Shown here piece by piece: positions 7,501 through 30,153 of a stretch of 64,000 bases of DNA. The translations under genes and the position numbers were made by a program. The notes below the pieces were generated by a model. The model made no database searches. It had not been told where the DNA came from and was given only the letters and a program-made list of their open reading frames with translations. The stretch's first letter is position 1, and each line of letters begins with the position of its first letter. Source of the DNA: Collinsella sp. An2 (GTDB lineage Bacteria > Actinomycetota > Coriobacteriia > Coriobacteriales > Coriobacteriaceae); NCBI RefSeq assembly GCF_002160065.1, contig NZ_NFJW01000004.1:1-64000 (forward strand), in the 5' to 3' direction.

Positions 7501-9397
7501 GCTCACCGAGGACTCGGTTGCGCATCTGGTGAAGCCCGACCGTCCCATCCGCGTCGTGGACCAGTGGATGTATCACAGCCGTCTGTACCGCGCCGCCAAG
7601 CTTGTGACGCTGCGCAACGACCTTGACCTCATCCAGCTGAACTCCTTCGGCTGCGGCCTGGACGCGCTCACCACCGACCAGGTGCAGGAGATCCTCGAGG
7701 GCTCCGGCAAGATCTATACGGTGCTCAAGATCGACGAGGTGTCCAACCTGGGCGCCGCGCGCATCCGCATCCGTTCGCTCATGGCCGCCCTCAAGGACCA
7801 GGAGGCCGAGCGCGCCGCCGAGGCCGCCGCTGCCGGCGAGTCCTACGAGCAGGGCGACGCCGCTCCGGTGGCACCCTCCGACGAGGCGCCGGCGTTCGCA
7901 ACCCACAAGTACGCGCTGTCCGCTCAGCGCCGCGCCAATTCATCGGCCTTCCCGAAGGTGCGCTTCACCGAGGAGATGTGCCGCGAGGGCTACACGATTC
8001 TGTGCCCGCAGATGGCGCCCATCCACTTCGACCTCATCAAGGAAGTGTTCCGCAACAGCGGCTACAACCTGGAGTTGCTGCCGTCGACCGACCGCGGCGC
8101 CGTCGAGGCCGGCCTGAAGTACGTGAACAACGACATCTGCTACCCGTCGATTCTCGTCACGGGCCAGATCATGGAGGCCATCGAGAGCGGCAAGTACGAC
8201 CTGTCCAAGACGGCCGTCATCATTTCGCAGACGGGCGGCGGTTGCCGTGCCACCAACTACATCGCGCTCATCCGCAAGGCGCTGCGCGACGCCGGCCATC
8301 CCGAGATCCCGGTCATCTCCATCAGCGCCGTGAAGCTCGACGAGGATAACCCCGGCTTCAAGGTGACGCCGCAGATCCTGAAGGCCGCAGTTTACTGCGT
8401 GCTGTACGGCGACGTCATGATGCAGATGCTCTACCGCTGCCGTCCCTACGAGGTCGAGCCGGGTGCGGCCAACGCCCTGTACGAAAAGTACATGGCCAAG
8501 GCGCGCGAGCTTGCGCCCCACTTCACGCGTCGCAGCTACACCAAGCTTGTGCGTGAGTCGGTCGAGGCTTTCGACAACATGCCGCTCAAGGGCGAGGGAA
8601 CCAAGCCGCGCGTGGGCGTCGTGGGCGAGATCCTCGTGAAGTTCCATCCCACGGCGAACAACCACGTGGTCGACGTCATCGAGCACGAGGGCTGCGAGGC
8701 CGTGGTGCCGGGCCTGCTCGACTTCTTCCTGTTTGCGATGAGCGGCGCAGAGAACGACAAGGGCGAGCTTGGAAGCTCCGGCGCGCAGCGCAGCGTGATG
8801 GCGGGCCTCATGAAGCTCATCGACTGGATGCGCGGTCCGGCGGACGAGATCCTGGAGAAGTCGCGCCGCTTCGAGCGCCCCGAGCCCATCAGCGCGCTTG
8901 CGGACAAGGCGTCGCAGGTGCTGTCGCTGTGCAACACGATGGGCGAGGGCTGGCTGCTGACGGCTGAGATGCTCGACCTCATCGATCACGGTGCGCCGAA
9001 CATCATCTGCACGCAGCCGTTCGCCTGCCTGCCCAACCACGTGGTGGGCAAGTCGGTCATCAAGGAGCTGCGTCGTCGTCACCCCGAGAGCAACATCGTG
9101 GCCGTCGACTACGACCCGGGCGCGTCCGAGGTGAACCAGCTCAACCGTATCAAGCTCATGATCTCGGTGGCCAAGGAGAACCTGCGCGCGGGCAAGGGCT
9201 TCAAAATGGAGCGCATCAAGCCGCTGGCGCTGGACGAGGTCGATTCCAAGTTCCGTCCGCATCATACCGAGGACGACGACAGCGATCCGTTGGGCGGTGC
9301 CGTGTCGGGCGGATGCTCGTCGTGTGGCGCGGTGACCGATGATGCCGTTGCCGCTGTGGCCGAGCGCCTGAGCGCCGGCGTCGGCTCGCATCAATAG
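4565..9397 (+). CDS. Giant 2-hydroxyacyl-CoA dehydratase activase-like protein
   Basis: A 1610-residue protein of the BcrA/BadF/BadG/HgdC activase superfamily, whose members use ATP and a [4Fe-4S] cluster to drive low-potential electron transfer to 2-hydroxyacyl-CoA dehydratases or benzoyl-CoA reductases. There are two ASKHA ATPase modules. The first spans about residues 84-335 (LGIDVGSTTVK; cluster cysteines Cys204 in NGTCAGGTGAF and Cys243 in SRCGVF). The second spans about 400-660 (IGIDAGSTTMK; Cys525 in NEACSSGCGSF and Cys564 in SRCTVF). Then comes a DUF2229-like and HgdB-like reductase region rich in cysteines, and a GGCSSCG tail. Residues 10-75 are a low-complexity linker with extra cysteines. 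Long fusions of this kind occur in Clostridia and Coriobacteria; substrate unknown. The start overlaps the TetR stop. Confidence 0.88.
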   Translation: MVKIPVTDLMDEQPACRTCGEEAAQTKASTTETGAADAPGCPERGGSTPGARRPTIEGQDGASDVSDQVPEGAIWNPDNNYGTLHLGIDVGSTTVKLAVLNDDNQIVYAKYQRHHTDVRACARDLFVGATGLLHNQPMTCAITGSGGLLLSQWLGLEFVQEVIASKRAVETLIPQTDVAIELGGEDAKIIYFDQGIEQRMNGTCAGGTGAFIDQMATLLHTDASGLNDLAKGATTIYPIASRCGVFAKTDVQPLLNEGARPEDVAASIFQAVVTQTISGLACGRPIRGNVAFLGGPLQYLSELRRRFYITLDLDEEHRIVPENAHLFVASGAAMAHESNKLATFPQLIASIDALGDTQGSEVARLDPLFADEEAYREFKERHDAQVVPKGDLATYAGKRVFIGIDAGSTTMKAAMVGEDGQLLHTWYGNNNGDILGTAKTIMADFYAHIPAGCTIGHVTTTGYGEALLIEALKADSGEIETVAHLRGARAFLPGVQFILDIGGQDMKCLRVRDGVIEHIMLNEACSSGCGSFIESFAVSMDMDVETFAHEAVKAKHPVDLGSRCTVFMNSRVKQAQKEGATVGDIAAGLSYSVIKNALFKVIKLRDPSEIGDQVIVQGGTFMSDATLRAFELLTGLDAVRPDIAGCMGAYGAALLARDRAGGAGVSSILSAEDIARLTVTQKHARCGRCSNNCQLTINDFGGGRRFITGNRCEKGAGHKKQRTEAPNLFKQKNDLLFNRACLAPEDAPRGTVGIPRALNMYEDYPFWHAFFTKLGFAVVLSDDSTKKTYEAGIESMPSESVCYPAKLSHGHIMNLIDKNPDFIWMPCVRKERKEDEAAGNCYNCPIVMSYPTALGLNIDELAEKNIEFMYPFVPYNDRVELKRRLYEILAQDRVADAATGKGRVRGPKLTRHEIDEAVNYAYEVDADFHEKIQTMGEECIHWIEEHGGHGIVLAGRPYHNDPEINHALPELITSFGFAVLTEDSVAHLVKPDRPIRVVDQWMYHSRLYRAAKLVTLRNDLDLIQLNSFGCGLDALTTDQVQEILEGSGKIYTVLKIDEVSNLGAARIRIRSLMAALKDQEAERAAEAAAAGESYEQGDAAPVAPSDEAPAFATHKYALSAQRRANSSAFPKVRFTEEMCREGYTILCPQMAPIHFDLIKEVFRNSGYNLELLPSTDRGAVEAGLKYVNNDICYPSILVTGQIMEAIESGKYDLSKTAVIISQTGGGCRATNYIALIRKALRDAGHPEIPVISISAVKLDEDNPGFKVTPQILKAAVYCVLYGDVMMQMLYRCRPYEVEPGAANALYEKYMAKARELAPHFTRRSYTKLVRESVEAFDNMPLKGEGTKPRVGVVGEILVKFHPTANNHVVDVIEHEGCEAVVPGLLDFFLFAMSGAENDKGELGSSGAQRSVMAGLMKLIDWMRGPADEILEKSRRFERPEPISALADKASQVLSLCNTMGEGWLLTAEMLDLIDHGAPNIICTQPFACLPNHVVGKSVIKELRRRHPESNIVAVDYDPGASEVNQLNRIKLMISVAKENLRAGKGFKMERIKPLALDEVDSKFRPHHTEDDDSDPLGGAVSGGCSSCGAVTDDAVAAVAERLSAGVGSHQ

Positions 9398-24926: not shown

Positions 24927-27437
24927 ATGAACGACAACAGACGTTATCCCTTGAGCCAGACGGTCGCGGCGTTTGCCCTCGCGCTACTGTGTACGGCGGC
25001 TCTTTCCATAGACCCCACGGCCGTGTCGTATAAGGACATCGTCGACATCGACCCCACCGCCACAGGAGCACTCTACATCTGCTACGAGGTGCTGCTGTCG
25101 TTTGCGGGCCATGCCGACGCGATTGTCCTGCTTGCGCTGGCCATCCTGCTCACCTTCCCCGTTCGCCACGTGTTCTTTGGCCGACGCGACTCCTGGAGGC
25201 CCTCCGTGGTGCTTCCGGCGCTGTTTTTTGCGTTCTGCATGGTCTTTGGGCGCAGCTACGACCTGACGAACAGCGCGCAGCTTGCCATTGGAGGCATCAG
25301 TCGCACGATCGAGTCCGTCATCGCGGGCGCCGGCTTTGCGCTTCTGGCCCATACGGGCATCTACCTGCTGTTCGAGGGGTTCGATTGGCTCGGCGGGCAC
25401 CGCGTCCCGTTTACCGAGGCGCGCTACGGACGCGTGTGGGGCGTGCTCGATTGGCTGCTCAACCGGCATCCGTTTGCGCTTCCGCTGCTGGTGCTGGTGG
25501 TGTGCTGGGCCCCGACCTTCATAGGGTCTGCGCCGGGCATTTTCATGGGAGACACCGGTGCCCAGATTCGCCAGTGGTTCAACCTGCCCAACGGCACCAG
25601 CGATTACCTGAACCTCATAGATCCCAACGTGTTGCTTAACGGGCATCATCCCGTCGTGCATACGGCCTTGTTGGGCAGCTGCGTGCAGCTGGGCATGGCC
25701 GTCTTCGGCGACGAGAACATGGGCGTGCTGCTGTACACCACGCTCCAGTTTGCAGTGAGTGCGCTGGCAATCGCATATGCGGTGAGCTCGCTCAAGCGCC
25801 TGGGCGTGCACCTTCTGGTGCGGGCGATAGCGCTCGGGTTCTTCGCGTGCATGCCGCTCTTTTCGAACTACGCCGTGCTCATCACCAAGGACGTGTTCTT
25901 TGCCGACGCCTTCCTGGTGCTGGTGATCCAGACGATTAAGCTGCTGGTGCCAAACGGCGTTTTGCGCTCCGGCGCGGCGGCGTCTGCGGCGGCGCGCCGG
26001 GCGACGCCCGCAGGGGAGACTGCGCAGAGAACGGTGCCCGCAGGTGAGACTGCGCAGGAAGCGGCCCCTGCGGGGGAGGCGTCGCTTCCTGCATCCATCG
26101 GCGAGGCTGCCCTCGATGCTTCTGCAAGTGCCGAGGGCCGGCAGGCGCTGGAAGGCGGGCTTTCGTTTCGGGGTTTGGCGGCGATGACCTATTCCGGCGA
26201 GGTTGTGCCGTTCGCGGCGCACGACTGGGTGCTTCTGCTGCTCGGTGCTGTAGGGTGTACGTTTTTGAGAAACGGCGGCGTGGTGTTTCCTGCGGCAGCC
26301 TGTGTGGTGGTCGCGGCGTGCCTGCTTATCGACGCGCGTCGCGTGCGCCGCCTGGTGCCTGCGCCGCCCTCACGTCGTGCCGTGTCGGGTGGCGACGGTG
26401 CTCCGTTCCAGCGCGACGTTGAGCCGGGTGCCGGCGACGCCCCGTCCCAGCGCGGCGTTGAGCCGGGGGCCGGCGACGCCCCGTCCCAGCACGGCGTTGA
26501 GCCAGGTGCCGTTGGCGCTTCGTCCTCGCGCGGCCTCGAACATGACCGCCGAGCGTCTCGCAAAGCTATGGGTACGGCTACCCACCTGCGCCGCGCCGCC
26601 ATCGGTGCGGTGGCAGTGCTTGTGGTGGCGGTCTCGCTGCAGCTTGTCTTCTCGAACGTGGTGATGCCCGCCTTCAAGATCACGCCGGGTAGCCGCCGCG
26701 AGATGCTCTCCATTCCCTTCCAGCAGACCGCGCGTTTTGTCCAGAAGCACGACGGCGCCAACGCTGGCATTGACGGTGGAACCTCGGATGGCCTTGTGAC
26801 CGACGAGGAACGCGCGGTGATCGATACGGTGCTGAACTACGACACGCTTGCGAGCCGCTACGACCCCGACAAGTCCGACGACGTGAAAAACGAGTTCAAC
26901 GAGGATACGACTTCAGACGAGCTGGCTGCCTATTTCCGCGTGTGGCTCGAGATGTTCTTCAAAGACCCTGCGTGCTATGTATCGGCGTTTGCGAACAACT
27001 ACTTCGGCTACTTCTATCCCAGCACGAAGGATGCGTGGATGTATACCACGTCGTCGAGCGCGGAGGTGGAGTCGCGCGAAGCCAATCGCCGGTACTTCAA
27101 CTTCCATCGCATGGAAGGCCCGGTTGTGGCGGCGTGCGACAGCGCGGTGAACCTCTACAGGACCGCTGTTCAGCGCATTCCGTTGCTGTCCCTCACCATG
27201 AGCTCGTCGGCGTATGTATGGGTGCTGCTGCTGGTGAGCGTGTACGTGCTCAGGCATCGTCAGTGGCGTACGCTCGGCGCGCTCGTGCCGCTGTGGGGCG
27301 TGCTTGCGATGTGCCTCATCGGTCCGTGCAACGGCTCGACCTATATGCGCTACCTCTATCCCATCATTTTGACGCTGCCCTGCGTGGTGGCCGTGGCGCT
27401 CACCGGCTCGCGTCTGCTATGGAGGCACGACGCGTAG
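24927..27437 (+). CDS. DUF6020 family large membrane protein
   Basis: An 836-residue polytopic membrane protein matching DUF6020 by PGIFMGDTGAQIRQWFN followed by LLNGHHPVVHTALLG around residues 205-245, a pattern also seen in GT-C glycosyltransferases that use polyprenyl-linked sugars. The role is unknown; cell-envelope polysaccharide modification is a guess. Two cytoplasmic low-complexity inserts break the fold: repeated PAGETAQ units near residues 355-385, and a 13-residue repeat (EPGAGDAPSQRGV) encoded at 26391-26537. ATG 24927 or GTG 24924 could start. The last 68 bp are copied at 29839-29906. Confidence 0.7.
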   Translation: MNDNRRYPLSQTVAAFALALLCTAALSIDPTAVSYKDIVDIDPTATGALYICYEVLLSFAGHADAIVLLALAILLTFPVRHVFFGRRDSWRPSVVLPALFFAFCMVFGRSYDLTNSAQLAIGGISRTIESVIAGAGFALLAHTGIYLLFEGFDWLGGHRVPFTEARYGRVWGVLDWLLNRHPFALPLLVLVVCWAPTFIGSAPGIFMGDTGAQIRQWFNLPNGTSDYLNLIDPNVLLNGHHPVVHTALLGSCVQLGMAVFGDENMGVLLYTTLQFAVSALAIAYAVSSLKRLGVHLLVRAIALGFFACMPLFSNYAVLITKDVFFADAFLVLVIQTIKLLVPNGVLRSGAAASAAARRATPAGETAQRTVPAGETAQEAAPAGEASLPASIGEAALDASASAEGRQALEGGLSFRGLAAMTYSGEVVPFAAHDWVLLLLGAVGCTFLRNGGVVFPAAACVVVAACLLIDARRVRRLVPAPPSRRAVSGGDGAPFQRDVEPGAGDAPSQRGVEPGAGDAPSQHGVEPGAVGASSSRGLEHDRRASRKAMGTATHLRRAAIGAVAVLVVAVSLQLVFSNVVMPAFKITPGSRREMLSIPFQQTARFVQKHDGANAGIDGGTSDGLVTDEERAVIDTVLNYDTLASRYDPDKSDDVKNEFNEDTTSDELAAYFRVWLEMFFKDPACYVSAFANNYFGYFYPSTKDAWMYTTSSSAEVESREANRRYFNFHRMEGPVVAACDSAVNLYRTAVQRIPLLSLTMSSSAYVWVLLLVSVYVLRHRQWRTLGALVPLWGVLAMCLIGPCNGSTYMRYLYPIILTLPCVVAVALTGSRLLWRHDA
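26391..26537 (+). repeat. 39-bp in-frame tandem repeat inside the DUF6020 gene
   Basis: Copies starting GAGCCGG/GAGCCAG at 26421, 26460 and 26499 are exactly 39 bp apart, with degenerate copies either side. Each encodes 13 residues. Being in frame, changes in copy number would lengthen or shorten a linker without breaking the protein. Confidence 0.8.
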
Positions 27438-27488
27438 CCGCAGCGCCTTTTGCGGTCGCACCCGCATCCTTGCGCGGGGTGTCTTGCG

Positions 27489-27848
27489 TGGTCAATTTGG
27501 ATGCACGCTGGGTAAGCCGGGCGCGCTGCCGGCTGCGCGTGGTCGATTTGCCCGCCGGCTGGGCACGCGTTGCGCGGCGGAGGAGTCCCTCTGGTCGATT
27601 TGGGTGAGCGCTGGGCACGCGTTGCGCAACGGGAGAAGCCCTCTGGTCGATTTGGGCGGGCGCTGGGCACATCGGGGCGTCCTCGAGACGCCGTGGCGGC
27701 CTTGACCGGGCACGCACATGCCCAGGCGGCGCGCAGATTGACCACATCGCTCTGTTTCGGGGAATCCCTCTGCCCAGCGGGCGGTTGGGTTGACCATTGG
27801 ACCATGGTCTCGACCAATGCTCTGCCCAAGCGCCGAGCAAATTGACCA
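27489..27848. repeat. Two-armed repeat array, 52-bp period (array A)
   Basis: Four left units of 26 bp (TGGTCGATTTG...GCTGGGCA type) start at 27489, 27540, 27592 and 27644. Three inverted units (TGCCCAG...TTGACCA type) start at 27719, 27771 and 27823. Spacing is 52 bp (51 once), and the last left and first right units start 75 bp apart. Intervening 26-bp stretches on the left are themselves similar, so this is not a CRISPR array. It lies in the 890-bp gene-free region 27438-28329; bases 28090-28329 are AT-richer and probably hold the promoter of the next gene. Confidence 0.88.
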
Positions 27849-28329
27849 TCGCTTCATGCGGGCGAGCTCTAACGGCGGCCGAGTGTTCCATGTCGAGCCA
27901 AGTGAGCTCTGTTTGCCATTAAGCGCTCTTGACGCTGACCGGGCGAGTTTTGGCTGCGAGTGAATGTCCTTGCAGCGGTCGAGCGGTCCCGGCTGCGACG
28001 TTTTATATAGCCGCGATTGATTGGCCCCTTGCGGATGCCGAGCACGCTTCGACGGATCTTGCGACCAGAGCACCCCTCACTGAATCTGGAGGCCGTCGGC
28101 GCGCATGAACAACGATCCCTTTACAAAACTTCAAAAGCAAAATGAAACCGCACAACTCTCAAATTGTCTCGTGTGAACAGGAAAACGGCTATTGTTACCT
28201 GCGCTTTCGCCGCACGCCATCACGGTTGCTGCTATCCCGTGTTAGATTCTGTAGAGGTTTCTGTAAGGTCGTGAGAATTGCTCGCCTCATGCTGGCTTGA
28301 TTGAGCGCGGCGCATGCTATGTTCACGCT

Positions 28330-29319
28330 ATGTCTGATATCTGTTTGTTTGGCATATCCGCCTTTGAGGCGTACCGTTCGAGTTCGCTGCTGTCGTCCGG
28401 GCTTTATGGGCTGCCGCGTACCTCGAAGCTTTCGAGCTGCGACGCGGCAACGGTGAAAGACCTTTCGGAAGACTTGGCGTCTTTAGGCGTGCTCGGCCGG
28501 CCCCTCCATGTGCTGCTGGACAACGACCATCTCTCACGTCGCGTTGATGGGGTTGCTGCACACGTTTGGACGCGCGATGTGCCGCCTCGGGCGTTTGTCC
28601 GATGTGCTCCACACATCTTGGTCCCTGTACCAGAGCTTTGCTTTTTGCAGCTTGCCGATCCGAGCCATGTCGTGCGTGGACAAAGCGGTCTGGCGCAAGA
28701 AATCGAATTGGTCCTCAAGGGATTTGAGCTTGCGGGTACTTATCGAATTGATTCCAGCATAGAGCGGGGATTTCGCACGATCGAGCACGCAGTAGCATCG
28801 GTGGCAAGCATGAAGAACATGCTAGAGCAGTGTGCGCCCATGCGGGGATGCGCTCTTGCACGTCGTGCCTTACAGGCGATCCAGGACGGCGCGCATTCTC
28901 CTGGGGAAGTATCAATGGCGTTAATGCTGACCGGTTCGCGTCGGTTGGGCGGCATGGGGTTTCCACGTGGTGTACTTAACTGGCCTGTTCAGACACCCGG
29001 AGGACAGCGGTATATCGATTTGGGACTCCCAGAGTATTTCACGGGGATGGAGTACAAGGGACGGCGCTTTCATCCCGAAGAGCGTTCGAGTGTCGATGAC
29101 CGTCGGGAAAATGCAATTGCCGGATGTGGCATAACGCTGTTCAACGTATGGCATGAAGACCTGGCGGATCCTCAGCTCTTCCGCCAGCTGGTCAAAGATG
29201 TGTCGCGTGTGCTCCACATGCGCGTACGCATTCGCAGCGAGGAGTTTTGGTTCCGGCAAAGCATTTTGCGATCGCGCGTTCTGCCTCCCCTCAGGCGCTA
29301 TGACGATATTGCTGGGTAG
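28330..29319 (+). CDS. Predicted AbiEi/DUF559-like protein with nuclease-like C-terminus
   Basis: A 329-residue protein. The N-terminal 130 residues resemble the winged-helix and linker part of AbiEi-type antitoxins (VPVPELCFLQLA segment). The C-terminal part, residues about 245-310, reads IDLGLPEYFTGMEYKGRRFH then DDRRENAIAGCGITLFNVWHEDL, the layout of a Vsr/DUF559 PD-(D/E)xK fold with Asp in IDLG and Glu-x-Lys in EYK. Whether it cuts DNA or only binds it is unknown. There is no strong SD at ATG 28330. The gene lies between two homologous repeat arrays with a copied gene tail on the far side, which suggests it arrived or moved as a unit. Confidence 0.55.
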   Translation: MSDICLFGISAFEAYRSSSLLSSGLYGLPRTSKLSSCDAATVKDLSEDLASLGVLGRPLHVLLDNDHLSRRVDGVAAHVWTRDVPPRAFVRCAPHILVPVPELCFLQLADPSHVVRGQSGLAQEIELVLKGFELAGTYRIDSSIERGFRTIEHAVASVASMKNMLEQCAPMRGCALARRALQAIQDGAHSPGEVSMALMLTGSRRLGGMGFPRGVLNWPVQTPGGQRYIDLGLPEYFTGMEYKGRRFHPEERSSVDDRRENAIAGCGITLFNVWHEDLADPQLFRQLVKDVSRVLHMRVRIRSEEFWFRQSILRSRVLPPLRRYDDIAG

Positions 29320-29417
29320 TTGTGCGTGTGCTGGATTGCCCTGTCAGATAGAAACGTGCGTGTCGAAACGTTGTTCAGGCAAGTGCGTGCGTGAGGGATG
29401 CTCGGTCGTGGAGTAGC

Positions 29418-29830
29418 TGGCCAATGTGGATGCGTGCTGGGTAGGCCGGGCGTGCCTTCGGGATGTGCGTGGTCGATTTGCCCGCCGGCTGGGCAACAGG
29501 TCTGTGGCCCGCACGGGGGCATGGTCAATATGCCCGCCGGCTGGGCACGCGTTGCACGGCGGGGGAGTCCCTCTGGTCGATTTAGGTGAGCGCTGGGCAC
29601 GGGTTGTGCGACAGGGGAGGCCGTCGGGTCGATTTGGGCGAGCACTGGGCACATCGGGGCGTCCTTGAGGCGTCGTGGCAACCATGGCCTAGCCCGCGCG
29701 TGCCCAGGCGGCGCGCAAATCGACCACATGCACCTGCTTCGCGCCGCTCTTCTGCCCAGCGGGCGATGAAATCGACCAACAGGCTCGAGGCCTAAGGCAT
29801 TCAGTGCCCAGCTGACGGAAGATTTGACCA
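29418..29830. repeat. Two-armed repeat array, 52-bp period (array B)
   Basis: Five left units of 26 bp start at 29418, 29470, 29522, 29574 and 29626, all exactly 52 bp apart. Three inverted units start at 29701, 29753 and 29805, again 52 bp apart. The centre distance (29626 to 29701) is 75 bp, as in array A. The centre and several intervening stretches are clearly homologous to array A (for example CATCGGGGCGTCCT in both). It occupies most of the gap 29320-30153; the rest holds the copied gene tail and about 250 bp in which I see nothing definite. Confidence 0.9.
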
Positions 29831-29838
29831 GAGGCTCT

Positions 29839-29906
29839 TGCCCTGCGTGGTGGCGGTGGCGCTCACCGGCTCGCGTCTGCTGTGGAGGCGCGACGCGTAG
29901 TCGCAG
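29839..29906 (+). pseudogene. Copied 3' end of the DUF6020 gene
   Basis: These 68 bp match 27376-27443 at 64 positions, including the codons for the last residues, the TAG stop and six bases beyond. Flanking bases on either side are not homologous. It lies 8 bp after the last unit of array B. It is a fragment left by a duplication or recombination, not a gene. Confidence 0.88.
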
Positions 29907-30153
29907 AGCTCTCAGATTGCTGCGCCGCGGCCCTATTGCCACGGCGCGCCCCTCGCATCAGGGCTCATTCTTGCACCGGGCTTTTGCGCTGCAATCCTGT
30001 GGCGCGACCGTATGCGTGCTCATTGCATGTCGCAACCGAAAAGGTCTGTACCTGGCAAGGTGAGCGGTATATCATACTGAACCGTGTGTTTCATCAAATG
30101 ATTGGCCGCCGGGGAAGTGACGGCCATGGCATCATGATACGAAGGAGAGTCGC

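Follow-up and report, generated by a model that had tools for sequence, protein, structure and literature searches.

The first 64,000 nucleotides of contig NZ_NFJW01000004.1 from Collinsella sp. An2 (hereafter the window) contain two arrays of 26-bp repeat units, A and B, in each of which a left arm faces an inverted right arm. The question raised by this locus is what reads these units, and whether they are read as RNA or as DNA. A first-pass annotation of the window had described the geometry, phasing and homology of the arrays, regarded them as new, and proposed that their transcripts fold into a long RNA rod. In our analysis the geometry, phasing, homology and novelty stood, and the RNA rod did not. 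The annotation had passed over a gene that lies between the two arrays and is probably their partner in the system. We consider it probable that the arrays serve as DNA sites for a cognate PD-(D/E)XK protein, which would bridge them over a short phased loop, the gene and its dispersed sites forming a repeat/enzyme partnership.

Two facing arrays enclose a putative nuclease gene

All the units previously reported were found at their positions, with the same arm counts and facing layout (Table 1). The start-to-start distance between the innermost left and right units is 75 bp in both arrays, as had been noted, and the left-arm spacings of array A are 51, 52 and 52 bp. The window holds 12 matches to the unit pattern, against 0.01 expected from shuffles. 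The homology proposed for the two arrays was also evident, with 82% identity between them over 260 nt. On either side of the whole block (array A, nuclease gene, array B) lies one copy of a 71-bp direct repeat, which corresponds to the 3' end of the upstream DUF6020 gene and may be a trace of the arrival or duplication of the block.

Table 1. Positions of the arrays and associated features in the window.
Feature	Position	Strand	Description
71-bp direct repeat, first copy	27376..27446	+	DUF6020 gene 3' end, before array A
Array A left arm	27489..27669	+	4 units of 26 bp: 27489, 27540, 27592, 27644
Array A centre	27670..27718		49 bp separating the facing arms
Array A right arm	27719..27848	-	3 units: 27719, 27771, 27823
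Putative nuclease gene	28330..29319	+	329-aa Vsr/DUF559/MTES_1575-like PD-(D/E)XK protein; intact ORF between A and B
Array B left arm	29418..29651	+	5 units: 29418, 29470, 29522, 29574, 29626
Array B centre	29652..29700		49 bp
Array B right arm	29701..29830	-	3 units: 29701, 29753, 29805
71-bp direct repeat, second copy	29839..29909	+	93%, beyond array B

Arrays with a 52-bp pitch occur in four Coriobacteriales genomes

The core of the unit, TGGTCR-N13-CTGGGYA, has 76 exact matches in the genome of the window (G000), with 0 matches for the reversed pattern used as control, and 58 in that of Enorma phocaeensis An718 (G001). After clustering, we obtained approximately 14 facing arrays in G000 and about as many in G001. 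Apart from the window's own genome, G001 was the only record with two exact tandem units in genome_contigs (84,980 species). When 399 Coriobacteriales genomes were searched with a looser two-unit pattern, two genomes of another genus (G056 and G057) were added, giving a total of 4 out of 399; ten further Coriobacteriales genomes had a single match, the level also seen in the control. In G056 and G057 the motif reads TGGTCA-N..-TATGGGYR, with a changed inner part, the same pitch of 52 and a centre of 64 or 74, taken here as the same geometry. A TGGTCA-N14-TGGG geometry with a 52-bp pitch is therefore common to two genera whose inner motifs differ. No arrays were found in G002, the third genome belonging to the genus of the window. 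According to the first-pass annotation, the window arrays would be a local accident if no other arrays had a 52-bp pitch or if the pitch varied freely. The survey of Coriobacteriales genomes found neither and, because G000 and G001 contain approximately 14 arrays each with a regular 52-bp pitch, the window arrays are not a local accident.

The exact pitch of 52 bp was confirmed in the arrays of five genomes, where 129 of 146 same-strand neighbour spacings measure 51–53 bp. The remaining 17 are 63, 73–74, 84, 103–106 or 115 bp. Facing pairs have an outer length of 100/101 bp in 21 cases, 90 bp in three and 79 bp in one, and the others are widened by the loss of a unit. Most deviant spacings can be accounted for by additional full helical turns of ~10.5 bp or by the loss of a unit, in agreement with the suggestion that all units lie on one face of the helix and that arms expand or contract while keeping their phase. 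An intermediate form was found in another genome (G036), which has multi-unit arrays with a pitch of 63, 73–74 or 84 and a centre of 101.

Within the unit, the position weight matrix carries information at positions 0–8, 13–14 and 19–25 and little elsewhere. Array positions between the informative ones mutate fast, and orthologous arrays of two Enorma species cannot be aligned outside the motif. A weak extra element, CGYG, at +33 to +36, is found only between tandem neighbours and is missing outside the outermost and inside the innermost units, which suggests that adjacent bound proteins touch one another along the arms.

The genes next to the arrays are unrelated housekeeping genes (among them rplL/galU/rpoB, alaS/ruvX, ilvC, rpsA, mraZ and ftsX), and for this reason a reading of the arrays as a regulon was dropped. 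One of the arrays (L083:4995-5303) lies within the ribosomal/RNA-polymerase region, from rplL to galU-rpoB, where G001 keeps one degenerate unit.

The gene between the arrays encodes a distant Vsr/DUF559-like protein

The window protein has no Pfam match at E 0.001. On its own it reaches a profile match of only E 0.1, below the curated cut-off, so its placement among Vsr-like proteins is a distant one. In an alignment of 23 homologs, D230, E241-Y-K243, H248, D256 and R259 form a conserved motif, with D230 and E241 invariant and K243 present in 20 of the 23 (Q in the other three). Judged from this alignment, the residue pattern is that of a PD-(D/E)XK nuclease. PF18741 (MTES_1575), a family named as a Vsr-type REase (PMC3710099), matches 22 of the 23 members, the best at 6.6e-7, and DUF559 matches 10. 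Pfam and NCBIfam scans of the associated gene returned matches to Vsr/DUF559-type nucleases only. Because an AlphaFold model built from two sequences was poor (pLDDT 34, unusable), the fold assignment relies on these weak profile matches and on the invariant residues. Sequence comparison with solved structures gave weak matches only, one of them to an endonuclease-like protein at E 0.5, and no PADLOC defence model matched the window protein at E<=1.

Close orthologs of this protein (E<=1e-108) are encoded in exactly 4 of 67 genomes of the family, and these are the four genomes with arrays; the next best match is at 4e-71. The ortholog of G001 is 61% identical and those of G056 and G057 about 51–52%. 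An array adjoins the nuclease gene in all four genomes, and G002 lacks both the arrays and a close ortholog. In f2 and f3, two further families of the same order, a genome may have as many as 15 paralogs. Searches of viral contigs found neither the array pattern nor relatives of the protein, phage records held no relatives, and plasmid records gave a single distant match (26%), on a Collinsella record of 900 kb. A distant homolog of the nuclease (25%) is also encoded in the window's own genome, where it shares a small contig with an array (G000:C25, L081:3862-4653).

Each nuclease lineage is accompanied by its own inverted site pair

We then considered the DNA around more distant homologs (36–42% identity), and found an inverted pair of 26–30-bp sites near each of them. 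Simple autocorrelation missed these pairs, as it was swamped by coding periodicity. All 23 close homologs have within 700 bp an inverted pair scoring at least 20 of 26 arm bases, compared with 15–21 in control segments, and in 22 of the 23 the arms could be arranged with TGGNCA-type sites outermost and private halves inside. The outer half is approximately TGGNCA plus A/T-rich bases almost throughout, and the inner half is private. The site reads TGGTCAAAGACCCCCGCAGAATAATAAA in G055 and G058, TGGTCAAAATACCCYGATTGTGCGC in G023, G035 and G046, and TGGTCAAATCACCCNNYGAGAGGGCATT in G059, where it flanks the gene on both sides. The window's own genome has a second family (C8), with the site TGGTCAATTTACCCACTGAGGTAGTTTTT, whose motif is confined to three loci of G000, each of them a pair (outer lengths 185, 195 and 206 bp). 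The C8-family pairs L186:6459-6643, L200:5208-5402 and L201:5229-5434 share the tetranucleotide GCTA approximately 22 bp outside the pair.

These site pairs are also dispersed along the chromosomes. The motif TGGTCAAANNNCCC has 9–26 sites, mostly in facing pairs, in each of seven other genomes (control 0–2), and dispersed pairs were found in G023, G035, G046, G055, G058, G059 and G036. Collinsella-like genomes, whose homologs are only 25–31% identical, have another motif, GTGCAAAANNNNGAGTNTTCNGCA, with 5–14 occurrences per genome in six of them (no control matches) and pairs of 170/171 and 211–213 bp, that is, four turns apart. Every further genome tested had dispersed pairs. At the f2 and f3 loci (L260-L299), a pair scoring at least 21 of 26 was present at 24 of 40, and the maximum in 80 shuffled segments was 20; since real genomic controls reached 21 once, a score of at least 22 is the safer line (17 of 40). 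In the G023/G035/G046 family, a second inner element resembling GCAATCCTGGGGTTTTG is present in both arms, 68–88 bp from the outer end (L178, L179, L181, L202, L204, L207 and L208).

Across all homologs, protein and motif similarity were weakly related (Mantel test, rho 0.15), and a clear relationship was limited to proteins more than 60% identical. The nucleases adjacent to htpG in G000 and G001, which are matched in position and 60% identical, have visibly different motifs.

These associations bear on whether the sites could be read by some other protein, such as a nucleoid or regulatory factor, with the nuclease gene as a mere frequent neighbour or cargo. Long tiled arrays resemble the sites of an oligomerising architectural protein, and the confinement of CGYG to tandem gaps and the unrelated housekeeping genes beside the array loci would fit such a factor as well. 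However, the array motif is restricted to genomes with a close nuclease ortholog, a distinct motif accompanies each nuclease lineage, and arrays and close ortholog are missing together from G002. We thus consider another reader unlikely, and the nuclease itself the better candidate.

Site pairs are helically phased, which argues against an RNA rod

The outer lengths of independent simple pairs group at approximately 164, 185, 195, 206, 217, 237 and 246 bp. Among periods from 6 to 20 bp, the best fit was 10.46 bp; R was 0.85 after de-duplication per genome family (38 values) and 0.89 for the 45 raw values. Pairs had been picked by sequence and closeness and not by phase, and some share a common ancestry. 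The maximum R in 5000 jittered sets was 0.56. The single inverted pairs of the relatives keep their phase across more than 100 bp of unrelated DNA. With a pair length quantised in this way, the two sites are expected to lie on one face of the DNA and to be bridged by protein, and the pairs are probably looped or synapsed in this way.

The same data speak against the RNA rod, or a cruciform, in which the left and right units of an array transcript would pair, because steps of 10.46 bp are meaningless for the loop of an RNA hairpin, and simple pairs hold their loop length to such steps. Array RNAs were predicted to fold with greater stability than their shuffles (z -4.3, -3.3 and -3.0), but any inverted repeat folds better than its shuffles, and this stability is therefore no support for a rod. 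Complementarity between the interiors of paired units across the centre was 0.535, against 0.509 for units of other rank, so that the expected pairing partners have almost no extra complementarity, and compensatory changes already appear to be largely absent. An Rfam search gave no match. We regard the RNA reading as very improbable.

Units persist while interiors diverge

At an orthologous locus of G023 and G046, identity amounts to 88% in the units, 47% in the interior and about 75% in the flanks. As the units outlast both the interior and the flanks, they are under selection. Within one genome, the interiors of pairs are mostly unrelated though their ends are nearly identical. The exception is a pair of loci in G046, d and e (L205:4091-4294 and 8304-8508), which are 4.2 kb apart and have interiors ~70% similar, with flanks that differ beyond about 20–45 bp. 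This shared interior indicates that whole pairs can, at least on occasion, be copied.

Array loci also differ between species. The rplL-galU gap measures 1098 bp in G000 (array), 434 bp in G001 (degenerate) and 358 bp in G002 (no unit), and the DUF711 gap 494 bp (array), 345 bp (degenerate units) and 151 bp (none), respectively. Units were missing from all 11 loci examined in G002. From these series we conclude that arrays gain, lose and decay in place. In empty-site comparisons the gaps are shorter, with junctions blurred by divergence.

Such observations could be explained if each pair represented the ends of a non-autonomous miniature transposon of 160–250 bp, moved in one piece by the nuclease as transposase, with the arrays as degenerate or nested copies. 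The sites always face inwards with TGG outermost, the d and e interiors are alike between different flanks, a 71-bp direct repeat brackets the window block, and the gaps of G002, which has no array at any locus examined, are shorter. However, other interiors within one genome are unrelated apart from the short inner motif, and lengths within one family of a single genome differ by whole turns (185, 195 and 206 bp). Furthermore, a constant target-site duplication was not seen, the direct repeat being found at the window block only, and the units outlast the interiors at the orthologous locus. A miniature transposon is in our view an unlikely explanation, and we favour resident sites bridged by the nuclease, which may have been spread by its activity in the past.

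Using a home-made gene caller, we found that none of the 39 classifiable arrays of Enorma and the second genus lies between divergent genes, compared with 43 of 151 long gaps. This distribution could mean that arrays act at the 3' ends of genes, as protein-bound roadblocks or insulators behind them, the nuclease having turned into a DNA-binding factor. By contrast, simple pairs showed no such bias (7 of 22 between divergent genes, same gene caller), and the avoidance of promoters by arrays could reflect tolerance rather than function; the classification itself also depends on that gene caller. We consider 3'-end control quite unlikely.

A proposed nuclease–repeat system and its relation to known systems

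We propose that the Vsr/DUF559-like PD-(D/E)XK protein encoded between the arrays reads them as double-stranded DNA sites. In its basic form, the system would consist of one family member and one or more inverted pairs of ~26–30-bp sites, in which the outer half of each site (TGGNCA and A/T-rich bases) hardly varies and the inner half is private. Facing sites would be spaced in steps of ~10.5 bp, so that they present one helical face, and the bound protein could join them in a short loop or filament. The gene-adjacent pair, which is the usual finding, would most likely serve self-control, and other pairs are scattered over the chromosome. In Enorma and the two species of the second genus, the pair would have expanded into arms of several units at a constant spacing of 52 bp. 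The activity of the enzyme, presumably cutting or nicking of DNA, may once have spread the sites, in a way similar to REPtrons with an unrelated enzyme, and the sites would now be largely resident and may benefit the cell. A difficulty for this reading is that an active nuclease amid ~14 array loci of its own genome would need control. Whether this amounts to a class of repeat system, in which the large family of Vsr-like nucleases of the Coriobacteriia, gut bacteria with as many as 15 such paralogs in a genome, each synapse a private, helix-phased and dispersed pair, sometimes expanded into nucleoprotein arrays of 52-bp pitch, is a proposition that we judge could go either way. The open-licence PubMed Central papers searched contained no description of such a system nor, as the first-pass annotation had stated, of an element with this layout.

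The closest counterpart is the REPtron, formed by a TnpAREP/RAYT gene and its cognate REP/BIME repeats (PMC8266576). In both cases the gene of a DNA-processing enzyme, usually in single copy, lies beside inverted repeats, cognate repeats are dispersed between genes, arrays avoid divergent promoters, and repeats differ by enzyme lineage. In contrast, the enzyme found here is PD-(D/E)XK-like, and that of REPtrons belongs to the Y1/HUH type. The unit TGGTCR-N13-CTGGGYA is non-palindromic and has no GTAG, whereas a REP is a hairpin palindrome of 20–50 nt after a GTAG. In addition, the sites described here are ~90–250 bp apart and helically phased, which points to double-stranded DNA rather than to single-stranded hairpins of the REPtron type. 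As both enzyme and repeat differ in these defining features, the system is not a member of the REPtrons. If our reading is correct, a repeat and a partner enzyme would have co-evolved twice in bacteria, once as a single-strand Y1/REP system and once as a double-strand-type nuclease with two phased sites. The many natural motif–protein pairs would then be a data set for studying how this nuclease family chooses its DNA, and many Coriobacteriia proteins that are now unnamed or merely labelled DUF559-like would acquire a role.

With Vsr, MTES_1575 (PF18741) and DUF559 proteins the family shares a C-terminal domain that matches weakly but consistently, with an invariant D and E, mostly a K, plus H and D. 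It differs in its long N-terminal region, which has no Pfam match, and in its long private site pairs; Vsr itself cuts at mismatches within a short sequence. MITEs and IS ends resemble the pairs in having inward-facing ends of 26–30 bp, a non-coding interior and a dispersed distribution. However, interiors here are mostly unrelated within a genome (G046 d/e excepted), no constant target duplication was seen, lengths change in helical-turn steps, and units have multiplied into arrays. The regular 26 + 26 bp layout recalls the repeats and spacers of CRISPR, but ~13 of 26 repeat positions are conserved in two facing arms, instead of near-identical repeats in one direction. By inspection of translated neighbours, no cas genes were present at 15 loci, and orthologous loci do not follow a spacer logic.

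Looped operator pairs, such as those of Lac, AraC or the NrdR type, lie on one helix face in steps of ~10.5 bp, often upstream of the gene of their own regulator. The period of 10.46 bp in site separation agrees with this pattern. The system described here differs from such operators in the putative nuclease active site of its protein, in its scattered sites, which also occur between convergent genes, and in its multi-unit arms with a 52-bp step.
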